From assembly GCA_022736275.1 (NCBI GenBank), contig DZBJ01000001.1:1-64000 (forward strand): 64,000 nucleotides of DNA. The letters run 5' to 3'. A program made the translations under genes and the position numbers. The notes under the pieces were generated by a model. The model searched no databases. It was not told the DNA's origin and saw only the letters and a program-made list of their open reading frames with translations. Numbering within the stretch: position 1 is the first letter of the stretch; each line of letters opens with the position of its first letter. This document shows positions 1 to 39,164 of the stretch, piece by piece. Origin of the DNA: Rikenella microfusus. Lineage in GTDB: Bacteria > Bacteroidota > Bacteroidia > Bacteroidales > VadinHA17.

Positions 1-54
1 CCGCGACCCTCGGCGTGACAGGCCGATATTCTAACCAAACTGAACTACCGCACC
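1..54 (-). tRNA. tRNA-Asp(GTC), 3' part cut by window edge
   Basis: The reverse complement reads as the 5' two thirds of a tRNA: acceptor strand GGTGCGG, D-arm with GTTCAGTTTGGTTAGAAT, and the anticodon arm CGGCCTGTCACGCCG with anticodon GTC (plus-strand 17-19). The T-arm and 3' acceptor strand lie beyond the left edge. The anticodon stem (CGGCC/GGCCG type pairing with CGCCG) fits bacterial tRNA-Asp. Confidence 0.93.
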
Positions 55-231
55 AAAAGCGATGCAAAATTAGTGCATTTTTCCATTCCTCAAAATATTT
101 CGTCCAAATATATTTGACTTGCCCGTTAAACCTTGAACTCATACTCCCGGAGCCTGCCGGGAGCAATGATATATACCGCTGATCCTTATCTGTATCCGCC
201 AGTTTTCTTATATTTGTTCTGGAGCAGACAA

Positions 232-1296
232 ATGAAAAACATATACTTTCAGATACCAGCGACCGGCACCCAAAGCCCGGGTCTCGTGCTGGCAACCGTA
301 ACCGCCACCAGCGGATCAACACCTCAGAAACCGGGGAGCTCGGCACTGCTTCTTGACGGCAGGCTGATAGCCGGCACAGTGGGCGGAGGGATTGTCGAAC
401 ACAGGGTGCTTGAGTATGCCCGCAACTGCTCCGGGGGATGCCAGTCGGCACTGCTTCACTTCTCCCTCGACAGGGAGACCACCGAACCGGAAGAGGCAGT
501 ATGCGGGGGTACGATAACCATACTTGCAGACAGTAACCCGGGAGCTCACCTGGCAGTATTCAGTGAGATGCAACAGAGCATCACGGCAGGACAGCCGGGT
601 GTGCTCGTTACCAAGGTGATCCCGTGGAACGAAACAAGCGTGATGATAAAACGGTGCTGGACCACGGGAGCAGGTGAGATACCCTTATCATGCAATGCAG
701 ATGCTGACCTGCTGAAAGAGGTCAGAGGCATCCTCACAGCAGGCAGCAGGGGTGATTACAGAGAGATTGAGATGCCGGTAGCAGGTGAAAAACAACCAGC
801 TAAGATATATCTTGAGCCGGTTTTCCCCCTTCCACGCCTGATCATAGGCGGCGCCGGACATATCGGCAAAGCGGTATCACACCAGGGGAAGCTGCTCGGA
901 TTCGAGGTCACCGTCATTGATGACAGGGCGGATTTTGCCAATCCTGTCAACCTGCCGGACGCAGATAACATCATCGTTAAGGACATTGGCGAAGCGATGC
1001 GGGAGATATCAAAGGATATGAATACCTTCATCATCATAGTTACCCGCGGTCACGGACATGATGCTGAGGCGCTTAAGCCATGCATCGGATCACCGGCGGC
1101 ATATGTCGGAATGATGGGGAGCAGGGTAAAGGTGGCCAAGGTTCATGAGGAGTTCATTGCCAGAGGATGGGCAACGGAGGACCAGTGGAAGAAAATATTC
1201 ACACCCATAGGTCTTGACATTGATTCCAAGACAATTGAGGAGATAGCTGTAAGCATCGCGGCACAGCTGGTAATGGTTAGAAGAATTAAGAATTAA
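232..1296 (+). CDS. xdhC: XdhC/CoxI family protein
   Basis: XdhC-family chaperone that hands sulfurated molybdenum cofactor to xanthine-dehydrogenase-type hydroxylases in the cytoplasm. The N-terminal XdhC_CoxI domain is seen as ATVTATSGSTPQKPG and AGTVGGGIVE within the first 70 residues. The C-terminal Rossmann-like XdhC domain begins near residue 203 with LIIGGAGHIGKAV and ends with VGMMGSR and IGLDIDSKTIEEIAVSIAA. I chose ATG 232 (MKNIYFQI), which matches the usual family start; the frame is open further upstream to a TTG at 133, but that part is not family-like. The final residues RIKN and the stop codon are encoded by a heptamer repeat array. The next gene is a MocA-like transferase, the usual partner, but the hydroxylase itself survives only as a remnant. 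Confidence 0.9.
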   Translation: MKNIYFQIPATGTQSPGLVLATVTATSGSTPQKPGSSALLLDGRLIAGTVGGGIVEHRVLEYARNCSGGCQSALLHFSLDRETTEPEEAVCGGTITILADSNPGAHLAVFSEMQQSITAGQPGVLVTKVIPWNETSVMIKRCWTTGAGEIPLSCNADADLLKEVRGILTAGSRGDYREIEMPVAGEKQPAKIYLEPVFPLPRLIIGGAGHIGKAVSHQGKLLGFEVTVIDDRADFANPVNLPDADNIIVKDIGEAMREISKDMNTFIIIVTRGHGHDAEALKPCIGSPAAYVGMMGSRVKVAKVHEEFIARGWATEDQWKKIFTPIGLDIDSKTIEEIAVSIAAQLVMVRRIKN

Positions 1297-1316
1297 GAAA
1301 TAAGAATTAAGAATAG
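1283..1316. repeat. Heptamer array, unit GAATTAA
   Basis: Four near-identical 7-bp units in register: GAATTAA at 1283, GAATTAA at 1290, GAAATAA at 1297, GAATTAA at 1304, then a decayed fifth. The array contains the stop codon of xdhC (1294-1296). Confidence 0.9.
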
Positions 1317-1340
1317 AATAAGCGACCGGGGCGAATTTGA

Positions 1341-2141
1341 ATGAATCAAGGGTCAGGGATGCAGGAGGTATGCGCGATAGTGCTGGCGGCCGGTGAGTCG
1401 AAGCGGATGGGCTCGCCAAAGATGCTGCTGGCATATAACGGTACAACCGTTCTTGGAAAGGTTATAGAAAATGTTCTGGCAGCAGGGATCACTGAACCGC
1501 TGGTAATTTCAGGAGCTGAACGGGATGATATTATTAAGGCTGCAATGAAGTATCCTGTGAAACATTGTTATAATGATAAATACAGAAGCGGCATGCTCTC
1601 CTCGGTGCAGTGCGGACTCACCTCCCTGGCTGACGAATGTCGTGCTGTGCTTGTTATGCCCGGCGACCAGCCGATGATAGGTGAAAGCGAGATTAATAAG
1701 GTGATAAAAGCATGGAGACGGTCCGGGAGGGGAATAGTGATGCCGTCTTTCAATGGCAAACGGGGACATCCGCTGTTAGTTGACATGAAATACCGCCCTG
1801 AGATACTTGCCCTGCCTGAGGAGGAGGGTCTGCGCAGGCTGGCGGAGAGGCACCCTGACGATGTTCTTGAGGCAGAGACTGATGATCCGTCCGTGCTTAG
1901 GGATATCGATACAAAAGAAGATTACCTGAATGAACTAAACATAATCAAAAGAGATGGAAAAGACAATTGCCGGCACCTGGGTGGCGCACATTGCTCAGGT
2001 GGAGGTGAGCCGGCTATCATTGCCGTTGGCGCGGCTGTCGGCAACGCCATATTCGATGCTGTCGGGGCAAGGCTTTTCAGGGTACCATTCACACCGGAGA
2101 GAGTGCTACAGGCAGTCGAAAGTCAAAAGTTGAAAGTCTAA
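1341..2141 (+). CDS. MocA-like molybdenum cofactor nucleotidyltransferase with abnormal 3' extension
   Basis: Nucleotidyltransferase of the MobA-like/MocA family, which transfers CMP (or GMP) from NTP to molybdopterin cofactor for hydroxylases. The signature AIVLAAGESKRMGSPK is at residues 12-28; MPGDQPM and GKRGHPLLV follow in the normal order. The family normally ends soon after the DIDTKEDY motif (near residue 188-195), giving a protein of about 200 residues. Here the frame runs on for about 66 more codons through sequence resembling the C-terminus of a molybdenum hydroxylase large subunit (GGGEPAIIAVGAAVGNAIF) and finally through a heptamer array that supplies QKLKV and the stop. The extension is therefore probably a read-through product of gene decay, not a designed fusion. 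Located 44 bp after xdhC. Confidence 0.82.
   Translation: MNQGSGMQEVCAIVLAAGESKRMGSPKMLLAYNGTTVLGKVIENVLAAGITEPLVISGAERDDIIKAAMKYPVKHCYNDKYRSGMLSSVQCGLTSLADECRAVLVMPGDQPMIGESEINKVIKAWRRSGRGIVMPSFNGKRGHPLLVDMKYRPEILALPEEEGLRRLAERHPDDVLEAETDDPSVLRDIDTKEDYLNELNIIKRDGKDNCRHLGGAHCSGGGEPAIIAVGAAVGNAIFDAVGARLFRVPFTPERVLQAVESQKLKV
1954..2114 (+). pseudogene. Remnant of molybdenum hydroxylase large subunit (XdhA/IorB type)
   Basis: Two pieces of a xanthine-dehydrogenase-type molybdopterin subunit appear in different frames. An ATG at 1954 opens a frame reading MEKTIAGTWVAHIAQVEVS, resembling the VAEVAEV stretch of these subunits. The mocA frame then carries GGGEPAIIAVGAAVGNAIFD and ARLFRVPFTPERVLQ, close to the canonical C-terminal end (GxGEPP...A.ANAI.DATG.R....P.TPE.VL). 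Several hundred codons between and before these pieces are missing. The homology call is by eye, so the exact family (XDH or isoquinoline-1-oxidoreductase-like) is uncertain. Confidence 0.72.
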
Positions 2142-2208
2142 AGGGCTGTTCCCAGTCTACAGTCACCAGTCTTCAGTCCTGCTGACTGCCGACTAACGAC
2201 TGCCGACT
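2115..2208. repeat. Composite heptamer array (GTCNAAA, CAGTCNN, NNNGACT)
   Basis: Three abutting 7-bp-period blocks. GTCGAAA/GTCAAAA/GTTGAAA/GTCTAAA occupy 2115-2142. CAGTCTA/CAGTCAC/CAGTCTT/CAGTCCT occupy 2153-2180. GCTGACT/GCCGACT/AACGACT/GCCGACT occupy 2181-2208. The second and third blocks are approximate reverse complements and could fold into a hairpin. The first block encodes the last codons and the stop of the mocA-like ORF. Confidence 0.9.
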
Positions 2209-2227
2209 GAATCAATAGCATCATGAT

Positions 2228-2263
2228 AAAAAAGGAGGGAAGCATGAGCGACCCTCCTTTTTT
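2228..2263. terminator. Bidirectional intrinsic terminator
   Basis: Perfect 12-bp inverted repeat AAAAAAGGAGGG (2228-2239) / CCCTCCTTTTTT (2252-2263) with a 12-nt loop. The A/T tracts flank a GC core on both sides, as expected between convergent transcription units (mocA-like + and susD -). Confidence 0.85.
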
Positions 2264-2282
2264 ATCAGTTTTCAAACCAGGA

Positions 2283-3731
2283 TTATTTCCCTGAGAGGTA
2301 CCAATCGTTCTGGACAAGCAGATCATTTACTTCCATCTCCCTGAAGGGAATGGGAAGTATAAGGTTGCCGGCATCATAGGGATAGTCGCCGATATTCTGC
2401 TTCCACCTTTTCAGATCATGCAGACGGAAACCCTCCCAGCAGAGTTCGAGATATCTCTCTTCCCTGATCTGATCCCTGGTAACTGGTGCCGTATAAAGGG
2501 GTGCATGTGCCCTGTCACGTATCACATTGATATCTTCTGTGGGGCTGTTAGGCCCGATGTCAGCGCCCGGGTCCTCGAAGTTGGCCTCGGCTCTGACAAG
2601 GTACATCTCAGCAAGCCTTATAAGGTTGAGGTTCGTATAATAATCCCCCCACTTGGAGGTGTTTATACCGTTGCTGTTGACGATAGTGCCAACGCCTTTA
2701 TAGTACATCATGTTAATATTATCGATTGTATAGAAGGACTCAGTATTCTCCTGGAACATTCCGCGCTCGTCGGAGGGATCAAACCTGTCGAGAAAAACCT
2801 GCTGAATTTCATAATCCCCCCTGCCGGCGCCATTGAGTGAGGCGTACATCACAGCAAGCCAGGGGTTGTTTGAAGCAACGTTGTTCTGGAATGCAAAGAT
2901 ATCCTCCGGTGAATTACTGCTATTGTTAAAGGCTTTCAAAGGTGTGTTCGTCAGTGAGAATAACCCGCTTTGAATTACCTGGTTTGCTTCAGTAGCAGCG
3001 CTTGCGTAATTGCCCATTTGCAGATGTATCCTTGCGAGGATTGCACTTGCAGCGAGGGATGAGGCATAGACATCATTTTCTTCCGGCAGTAAATCGCGTG
3101 CAGCTGTCAGGTCATCAAGGGCCTGTGAATAACCCTCTTCAACAGTATTCCTCGGAACATTGACAGCATCGGCCACATCCTTTGTAGGAGTGAGCATAAG
3201 CGGTACAGCCGGCTGACTATTTGCAGCACCGGCTTCATAAGGCAACCCGAAGAGCCTGGTAAGCTCAAAGTAGGTCCACCCTCTTAAGAAACGGGCCTCA
3301 CCCTCAACCATATTACGGTCTTCCTCATCAAGAATGGCAAGTATTTCCGGATCGACAAGCGTGTTGCAGGTGTTTATAACCTCATAAGCCTGGATCCAGG
3401 TGTTTTCAACATAACCGTTGGTTACCGTGGCCTCCTTCTGAATGAATTCACGCGGTTCCTCGAATGTTCCGAGAAAGAGCATATCCCCTTTTGAGGCATA
3501 CAGCTCACTGTATTCATTGAATGCTGTTCCGAAGATCCATTGACTCCTTCCGTCGAGGTAAGTACCAACAAGAGTCGCTTTTATGTTTGCCGGTGTTGTA
3601 AGAGCAACAGCAGCGTCAATGGACTGTTTAGGCATAAGGTCCAGCTTCTCGGTGCAGGAGAAGAGCAGCGTGAATACCGGAACCAGCAGTAACAATTCTT
3701 TGGTATTGATGATTATATTTTTCATGATCAT
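2283..3731 (-). CDS. RagB/SusD family nutrient-binding outer membrane lipoprotein
   Basis: Surface lipoprotein that caps the SusC channel and binds glycans or oligopeptides. The signal peptide ends in the lipobox TLLFSC with Cys at about residue 26. Typical SusD features follow: N-terminal KLDLMPKQSID, TPR-rich helical middle (RFLRGWTYFELTRLFG), and a C-terminal LCWEGFRLHDLKRWK and ILPIPFREMEVN. Length 482 aa is normal. ATG 3731 and ATG 3725 are both possible starts. It follows susC by 12 bp, so the two form one transcription unit. No sensor/regulator or glycoside hydrolase sits next to the pair, so its substrate cannot be inferred. Confidence 0.95.
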   Translation of the reverse strand: MIMKNIIINTKELLLLVPVFTLLFSCTEKLDLMPKQSIDAAVALTTPANIKATLVGTYLDGRSQWIFGTAFNEYSELYASKGDMLFLGTFEEPREFIQKEATVTNGYVENTWIQAYEVINTCNTLVDPEILAILDEEDRNMVEGEARFLRGWTYFELTRLFGLPYEAGAANSQPAVPLMLTPTKDVADAVNVPRNTVEEGYSQALDDLTAARDLLPEENDVYASSLAASAILARIHLQMGNYASAATEANQVIQSGLFSLTNTPLKAFNNSSNSPEDIFAFQNNVASNNPWLAVMYASLNGAGRGDYEIQQVFLDRFDPSDERGMFQENTESFYTIDNINMMYYKGVGTIVNSNGINTSKWGDYYTNLNLIRLAEMYLVRAEANFEDPGADIGPNSPTEDINVIRDRAHAPLYTAPVTRDQIREERYLELCWEGFRLHDLKRWKQNIGDYPYDAGNLILPIPFREMEVNDLLVQNDWYLSGK

Positions 3732-8994: not shown

Positions 8995-10434
8995 ATGAGG
9001 AAGGAGAATATATATACTCTTATGGAGAAGAATCTTGGATATATTCCGACTCAGGATCAGTCTGACTGCATGCGGTTGCTGGCTAACTATGTGACTGATA
9101 ATACAAATGACATCATTTTTTTGCTGACGGGATATGCCGGCACTGGCAAGACAAGCCTTATCGCCTCACTGGTAAGCACTCTCAGCACCCTGCGTCAGAA
9201 GTCTGTTCTTCTTGCACCTACCGGCAGGGCTGCAAAGGTGCTGAGGTCATATACTGGCAGGGAGGCTTATACAATCCACCGCAAGATATACAGGCAGAAA
9301 TCGGCCACTGACGGTATAGGGAAATTCGTTCTTGACAGGAATCTGCACAAGGAGACAGTCTTTATCGTGGATGAGTCATCGATGATCCCTGACGAATCAT
9401 CAGACGGGTCTATGTTCGGCAGCGGAAAGCTGCTCGAGGATCTTCTTGAGTATGTCTACACCGGCACTGACTGCAAGCTTATACTTGTCGGCGATGTGGC
9501 GCAGTTGCCTCCGGTAGGTTCGGTTGTCAGTCCTGCCCTCGATGCCGAGGTGCTTCGTACAACAGGTTTCGGGCTTATGACCTTTGAACTTCGCGAGGTC
9601 ATCAGGCAGAGCGAAGGGTCGGGGATACTTATGAATGCCACCGCCGTCAGGCAGCAGGTTAACGACGGAGATATCTCCGTGCCTGAGATAGTGCTTAAGG
9701 GATACGGTGACATTGAACGTCTCGGCGGCAATGACCTGATTGATTGTCTCAGCGAATCGTATGACAGGTGCGGCACCGACGGGGCCATCGTGGTTGTCAA
9801 CTCCAACAACCTCGCCAACAGGTATAACCAGGGAATACGCAACAGGGTTTTCTTCCGTGAGGAGGAGATCAGCACCGGCGACCTGGTGATGGTTGTGAAG
9901 AACAACTACTACTGGCTTAAGGATGAGGAGAATGGCTCATTCATTGCCAACGGTGACATTGCCGAAGTAAGAAGGATAAGGAGGAGTGAGGAGATGTACG
10001 GGATGCGCTTTGCGGAAATGACCCTCTGGTTCCGTGACACCGAGCTGGAGATAGAGGCTAAAGTTATGCTTGACACTCTTATGATGAGCACTCCGTCACT
10101 CTCACCGGAAAAGTCAAGGGAGCTCTATTTCTCAGTGCTGGCTGACCATCCCGGCATCAAGTCAAAGCGAAAACAGTTTGAGGCGGTCAGGGATGATCGC
10201 TGGTACAACGCCCTGCAGATCAAGTTTGCCTATGCCGTCACCTGTCACAAGGCGCAGGGAGGGCAGTGGGAGAGGGTCTTCATTGATCAGGGCATGTTCA
10301 GCCGCCAGGAGCCGACCATTGACTATCTGAGGTGGTTCTATACAGCACTGACGAGGGCGACGGATAAGGTTTACCTGGTAAATTTTCCGGACAGCTGGTT
10401 CAGTCGGCAGTCGGCAGTCCACAGTCGGCAATGA
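8995..10434 (+). CDS. RecD-like superfamily 1 DNA helicase (AAA_30)
   Basis: ATP-dependent SF1 helicase like the RecD/RecD2 core, without RecD2's long N-terminal region. Walker A GYAGTGKTS is near residues 46-54, APTGRAAKVL is motif Ia, the Walker B is FIVDESSMI, and VGDVAQLPPVGSV is motif III. The C-terminal part has VTCHKAQGGQWERVF and YTALTRATDKVYLV (motifs V/VI). Length 479 aa. No recB or recC is nearby, so it probably acts alone in DNA repair or replication-fork processing. The last eleven residues (FSRQSAVHSRQ) and the stop codon lie in a CAGTCGG heptamer array and look like an acquired tail. Confidence 0.88.
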   Translation: MRKENIYTLMEKNLGYIPTQDQSDCMRLLANYVTDNTNDIIFLLTGYAGTGKTSLIASLVSTLSTLRQKSVLLAPTGRAAKVLRSYTGREAYTIHRKIYRQKSATDGIGKFVLDRNLHKETVFIVDESSMIPDESSDGSMFGSGKLLEDLLEYVYTGTDCKLILVGDVAQLPPVGSVVSPALDAEVLRTTGFGLMTFELREVIRQSEGSGILMNATAVRQQVNDGDISVPEIVLKGYGDIERLGGNDLIDCLSESYDRCGTDGAIVVVNSNNLANRYNQGIRNRVFFREEEISTGDLVMVVKNNYYWLKDEENGSFIANGDIAEVRRIRRSEEMYGMRFAEMTLWFRDTELEIEAKVMLDTLMMSTPSLSPEKSRELYFSVLADHPGIKSKRKQFEAVRDDRWYNALQIKFAYAVTCHKAQGGQWERVFIDQGMFSRQEPTIDYLRWFYTALTRATDKVYLVNFPDSWFSRQSAVHSRQ

Positions 10435-28960: not shown

Positions 28961-29053
28961 ATGAACTTCGAAAATTTTACCATAAAGGCACAGGAGTCGG
29001 TGCAGAAGGCCCTGACCATTGCCGGTGGCAGGCTGGTGATGATAAATGTCTAG
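28961..29053 (+). pseudogene. clpB: 5' stub of clpB
   Basis: ATG 28961 begins MNFENFTIKAQESVQKALTIAGG, which is the characteristic N-terminus of Bacteroidota ClpB disaggregase. Homology ends after about 23 codons; a non-homologous RLVMINV and a stop follow. More than 800 codons are missing, and the following DNA is the 3' end of a STAS gene on the other strand. The frame is open upstream to 28862, but those residues are not ClpB-like. Confidence 0.82.
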
Positions 29054-38824: not shown

Positions 38825-38860
38825 GAGGGTGTCTCATCAATGAACGGACACCCTTTTTTT
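38825..38860 (+). terminator. Intrinsic terminator
   Basis: GGGTGTC (38827-38833) / GACACCC (38847-38853) stem with 13-nt loop, followed by seven T residues. Confidence 0.85.
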
Positions 38861-39164
38861 ATTTGCCTCCTACTTCAAACAGCGTCCGGCACCTGGCACA
38901 CAGGCTGCTGCTCTTCAGGTCTGCTGCGTTGCGTATCAGGTGTGACAGGTCGTCAGGGTCAAAGGGCTTTGTGACATAGTCAAAGGCCCCGTCTTTCAGC
39001 GCCTGCAGTGCAGTGTCAACGGATGCGAATGCTGTCATAATGATCACAATGGAGTCCTTGTTCAGGGCCCTTATGCACCTGTGCATCTCCAGAAGAGCTG
39101 TCTGGAGCACCAGAAGCGGGATCATAAACGTTATTAATCTTTTCATTTTACACCTGGTTTTCAT
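38859..39164 (-). pseudogene. Truncated response regulator receiver domain
   Basis: The frame encodes the second half of a NtrC-type receiver domain: RALNKDSIVIIMTAFASVDTA (with the conserved Thr of MTAF), LKDGAFDYVTKPFDPDDL (conserved Lys of KPF). The first half with the acidic pocket and phospho-acceptor Asp is absent; instead about 25 hydrophobic residues without REC similarity precede it. After the domain is a short CxxC tail (SSLCARCRTLFEVGG). The protein cannot be phosphorylated in the usual way, so this is most likely a broken gene. Confidence 0.72.

Follow-up and report, generated by a model that had tools for sequence, protein, structure and literature searches.

The window analysed here, a stretch of 64,000 nucleotides from Rikenella microfusus, carries near its start an intact xdhC frame, followed by an open reading frame of 266 amino acids (1341–2141, plus strand; present in the window's ORF list) in which a MocA-like protein is joined to the end of a molybdenum hydroxylase subunit (Table 1). 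XdhC belongs to its family by both domains, XdhC_CoxI and XdhC_C (PF02625, E = 1e-14, and PF13478, E = 6e-37, respectively; both over cut-off), and scores 258 bits against NF045664, under the cut-off of 350 bits. The MobA-like NTP transferase domain of the fused frame is intact (residues 12–173; PF12804, E = 6.6e-37, 127.6 bits against a cut-off of 27), and AlphaFold2 models it with confidence, the block means of pLDDT being above 90 for residues 11–190. Since its score against the NCBIfam equivalog TIGR03310 is 174.9 bits, under the cut-off of 186.45, we call the protein MocA-like. For what XdhC and MocA do, we follow a published account (PMC2997495). ARAGORN found no tRNA within positions 1–3000.

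Beyond the 209 residues of native MocA, the frame continues for 57 more, made up of nine junction codons, which lie in the frame of no gene and are meaningless, and 48 codons of IorB that run to the iorB stop. The sequence-only reading had claimed that the mocA-like frame enters the C-terminus of an XDH-type large subunit, and this is borne out. The tail alone matches NCBIfam NF045668 (E = 1.2e-7, positions 854–904 of 905) and the C-termini of solved hydroxylases among PDB sequences (8gy3_C, E = 2.4e-5; 1sij_A, E = 3.1e-4), although a Pfam search of the tail matched no family. With IorB of congener G013 as query, the genome yields one single match, at window positions 1995–2138 (E = 1.4e-20; 92% identity over 48 amino acids to residues 670–717 of 717), and 1998–2190 matches locus L021 at 82% in blastn. 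The hydroxylase similarity expected at about residues 205–255 is therefore real, but it occupies residues 219–266. The natural end of MocA had been placed at DIDTKEDY (residue 195), which does not hold: MocA of congeners G013 and G015 continues past this motif (DELNIITRDGRDDPI and NEINLIERDGRDNQV, respectively), and native sequence extends to residue 209 (base 1967), about 14 residues later. With about 60 codons in two frames and no Pfam match, the hydroxylase sequence is a remnant and not a member of the XDH-type large-subunit family. AlphaFold2 gives residues 213–250 a pLDDT below 50, which is weak evidence since the alignment rows lack the tail.

Table 1. Features of the xdhC–mocA locus and further scars, as read from comparison with congeners
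Feature	Position	Strand	Remarks
xdhC (Moco chaperone/sulfuration factor), intact frame	232–1296	+	PF13478 and PF02625
Native part of mocA, 209 codons, own stop deleted	1341–1967	+	PF12804; collinear with congeners to 1967
First five codons of iorA (MEKTI), one base short	1954–1967	+	Overlaps the end of mocA as in G013 and G015
Deletion junction D1	1967–1969	+	iorA codon 5 continues in frame at iorB codon ~572; ~2.18 kb missing
Internal iorB fragment	1968–2010	+	AGTWVAHIAQVEVS, in the frame of ATG 1954
Deletion junction D2	1998–2010	+	268 bp missing; ~13-bp stretch largely matching both donors
iorB 3' end, native stop codon included	1998–2141	+	Read in the mocA frame (SGGGEPAIIAVGAAVGNAIFDAVGARLFRVPFTPERVLQAVESQKLKV); last ~47 codons at ~1998–2138
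clpB scar	28961–29053		First ~23 and last ~8 codons fused in one frame; 2499 bp missing
101-aa mixed frame	38859–39164	minus	Pieces resembling three genes; four intact genes in G003, G018 and G006
Scars in congener G018	L132, about 9171–9183; G018:C51, about 167879		712 and 1533 bp

We searched the fused protein against 60 genomes (its own included), 21 of them congeners; the named relatives are Bacteroidales MAGs such as UBA4772, Prado082 and C14-10. Most congeners give two separate matches, one to MocA and another to the end of a large frame about 2.5 kb downstream. A mocA of this kind is present in 15 of the 21 congeners (53–66% identity; G007 gives a distant match only), and in 12 of these 15 the order xdhC–mocA–iorA ([2Fe-2S] subunit)–iorB (molybdenum subunit) is found on one contig. 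The locus is cut by a contig end in two of the 15 (G015 and G020). In G005, iorAB is absent, the end of susD lies within about 200 bp after mocA (L040, 791–991), and blastn reveals no iorAB remnant between the two genes; the G005 genome still has a second hydroxylase locus. The order xdhC–mocA–iorA–iorB is also intact in a Bacteroidia MAG from Lac Pavin (L115).

Between mocA and the downstream end, the congener frames encode two proteins, one of 160 aa with the domains Fer2 and Fer2_2 and one of 717 aa in which MoCoBD_2 (in two stretches) and MoCoBD_1 are found. Together they make up a two-subunit hydroxylase, which we take to be of the IorA/IorB type. These domains are like those of IorA/IorB-type enzymes, whose molybdenum subunit has about 720 amino acids and an RRxFF start; neither congener subunit reaches an NCBIfam equivalog cut-off. 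The window, in contrast, retains five iorA codons and about 60 iorB codons, most of them fused to the end of mocA. Relatives have intact copies at this position and the flanks are collinear, which marks these remains as a deletion pseudogene and bears out the earlier proposal that the enzyme served by XdhC and MocA has been deleted here while both helpers were kept. The genomes G010 and G011 (L033 and L034) have the 3' part of iorB, in G010 at a contig end, and no xdhC, mocA or Fer2_2 match, a pattern that reflects either a contig break or a different course of loss.

Both gaps are measurable in 10 congeners (11 loci were compared; L023 stops before the end of iorB). The D1 gap amounts to 2159–2187 bp across these congeners, and the D2 gap is exactly 268 bp relative to each of them. 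The window agrees with iorB from 1968/1969 and with the iorB 3' end from about 1998. As judged by the congener donors, about 13 bp at D2 largely agree with both sides, and D1 shares 0–2 bp. In blastn, the internal iorB fragment is 82–87% identical to iorB over 38–46 bp at eight congener loci; when compared with large subunits, both remnant pieces thus match iorB or hydroxylases. The subunit piece seen in a second frame at 1954 needs correction in one respect: it does contain iorB sequence, but its ATG is the start of iorA, and iorB begins at 1968–1969. Since the mocA stop of G013 and G015 lies nine bases past the D1 position, D1 removed mocA's own stop. At the level of sequence, these comparisons establish the congener gene order, the two deletions, the removal of the mocA stop and the open MocA–IorB frame.

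The assembly is a draft of 3.15 Mb in 187 contigs, 96.25% complete. Searches of it with PF20256, PF02738 and PF01799 gave no match each, and the remnant is the sole match to a congener IorB protein. No other hydroxylase large or [2Fe-2S] subunit was found in this assembly, which, as far as the draft reaches, answers the question of another intact client raised by the sequence-only reading. MoCoBD_2 occurs in 20 of 22 genomes of the genus; G002 is also without it. A second locus, found in many congeners (e.g. G018:C22), encodes XDH-type subunits and YgfK-, YgeW-, YgeY- and SsnA-like proteins. Both flanks of this locus lie on contig C182 of the present assembly, with 13.3 kb missing between them and 4 bp shared (2221–2224). 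On the same contig (L131, 192–2492), a 319-bp deletion with a 10-bp overlap has brought the larger part of YgeY and YgeW into a single 766-aa frame, which scores over the curated cut-off of each family; the adjoining 13.3-kb deletion took out the purine-type hydroxylase cluster. Both hydroxylase loci were thus lost through deletion. The genome retains a MoaA-type match, three PF00384 (DMSO-reductase-type) proteins and a MobA-like gene; it is therefore likely to go on producing Moco for other enzymes. We considered MocA as the only remaining MobA and dropped the idea, since the MobA-like gene is a separate one on contig C134 (best NCBIfam score 98.9, under the MobA cut-off of 151.85).

The window is for the most part collinear with congeners, and besides iorAB it contains at least two more scars. 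One lies in clpB, which is full-length (863 aa) in G003, G018, G006 and G021. In the other, the 101-aa frame, the opening of a 563-aa protein is apparently combined with a receiver fragment from an NtrC-type regulator and the last part of a metzincin-like protein; the receiver fragment alone gave a database-style match, and the two ends were assigned by reading the peptides. Congener G018 has two genes with deletions at 11–19-bp overlaps, both intact in the genome studied here. A strict scar scan of stretches of G003, G001, G009, G006 and G021 found none. Since clpB and two G018 genes are scarred too, we gave up the idea that only molybdenum genes are affected, and these similar scars suggest that the iorAB scar is one of several left by an ordinary deletion process. 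The clpB (2499 bp) and one G018 deletion (1533 bp) are multiples of three and those of 268 and 712 bp are not, too few cases to say whether the frame tends to be kept.

We therefore regard the locus as very probably a scar left when two deletions destroyed a two-subunit molybdenum hydroxylase of the iorA–iorB type, with a functionless tail on MocA. Selection for the hydroxylases would have ended before the deletions, which may have been produced by illegitimate (RecA-independent, slippage-type) recombination. D1 took out about 2.18 kb, from iorA codon 5 to about iorB codon 572, together with the mocA stop, and D2 removed 268 bp at what looks like an imperfect repeat of about 13 bp. Since D1 has almost no shared bases, repeat slippage fits D2 only. 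MocA now reads through nine codons into the end of IorB, the fusion being a by-product and its tail most likely doing nothing. In Streptococcus agalactiae ST260-261, a study of reductive evolution describes large deletions located at repeats whose median length is 8 nt, ascribes them to RecA-independent recombination and mentions consecutive deletions at one place (PMC3637634). The scars reported here are like those intragenic and multi-gene deletions in that they include large deletions, some of them apparently at short repeats. Unlike them, they come from an uncultured Bacteroidales genus and are seen by comparison with congeners only 65–75% alike in DNA, which leaves the events undated. In B. 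subtilis pucAB–pucCDE, XdhC-like and MocA-like genes adjoin the enzyme they mature (PMC2997495); in contrast to such xdhC–mocA–hydroxylase clusters, the locus described here has lost the enzyme genes, and its MocA carries part of the large subunit as a fusion. A limited literature search found no paper on this scar, which says little.

An assembly chimera or a strain mixture, in which the population keeps iorAB and the contig misjoins distant pieces, is improbable. The genome is a draft judged from the assembly alone, the locus lies 2 kb from the contig start, and several congener contigs break near the same locus; however, searches with the three families and the IorB query find the missing iorAB nowhere else in the assembly, the rest of the window is mostly collinear with congeners, and the separately assembled congener G018 has the same kind of scars. 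Assemblers usually work with word lengths above 0–2 and about 13 bp, so the sequence shared at the junctions is short for a misjoin. It is even harder to credit that the IorB tail has conferred a function on the fused MocA, making it a new accessory protein, and we consider this very unlikely indeed. The frame is open up to the iorB stop and its IorB part is highly conserved, but the fusion is seen in this genome only, with MocA and the IorB end as separate matches in congeners, its nine junction codons belong to no gene's frame, and the low pLDDT of residues 213–250 points the same way within the limit given above.

XdhC and MocA might still serve a hydroxylase outside the bin, which seems unlikely, if slightly less so than a chimera. 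The completeness falls short of 100%, and the two proteins are well preserved: changes affect 2 of 117 conserved columns in XdhC (columns invariant in 12 congeners; congeners 1 to 12 of 116–127, 13 sequences) and 3 of 63 in MocA (congeners 0 to 4 of 60–64, 14 sequences, leaving out G019 and G008, which the script's motif missed), both inside the congener range. Against this reading, the usual second locus was located as a deletion whose two flanks share a contig, and the three family searches were empty. Decay sought at conserved positions of XdhC and MocA thus showed no excess change relative to congeners, so that the loss looks recent, and under the deletion reading the two would be recent orphans on their way out; the lack of decay also agrees with continued use. 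One form of such use, that the whole molybdenum hydroxylase branch, two loci with up to three enzymes, was lost and XdhC and the tailed MocA were kept for a second role, e.g. Moco handling for the remaining molybdoenzymes, is less probable than either a chimera or a client outside the bin.

The iorAB scar is a case of ordinary gene decay, well resolved, that leaves helper genes without a visible client. The 266-aa frame had been called a probable artefactual fusion, which is right for its annotation, while the open frame itself exists in the assembly. Gene loss can create false 'intact' genes, as automatic annotation would accept both the 266-aa MocA and the 766-aa YgeY–YgeW chimera. The locus is a well-resolved example of orphaned maturation genes and false fusion genes. 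The presence of xdhC and mocA is no proof of a molybdenum hydroxylase, which matters for metabolism predicted from draft genomes.
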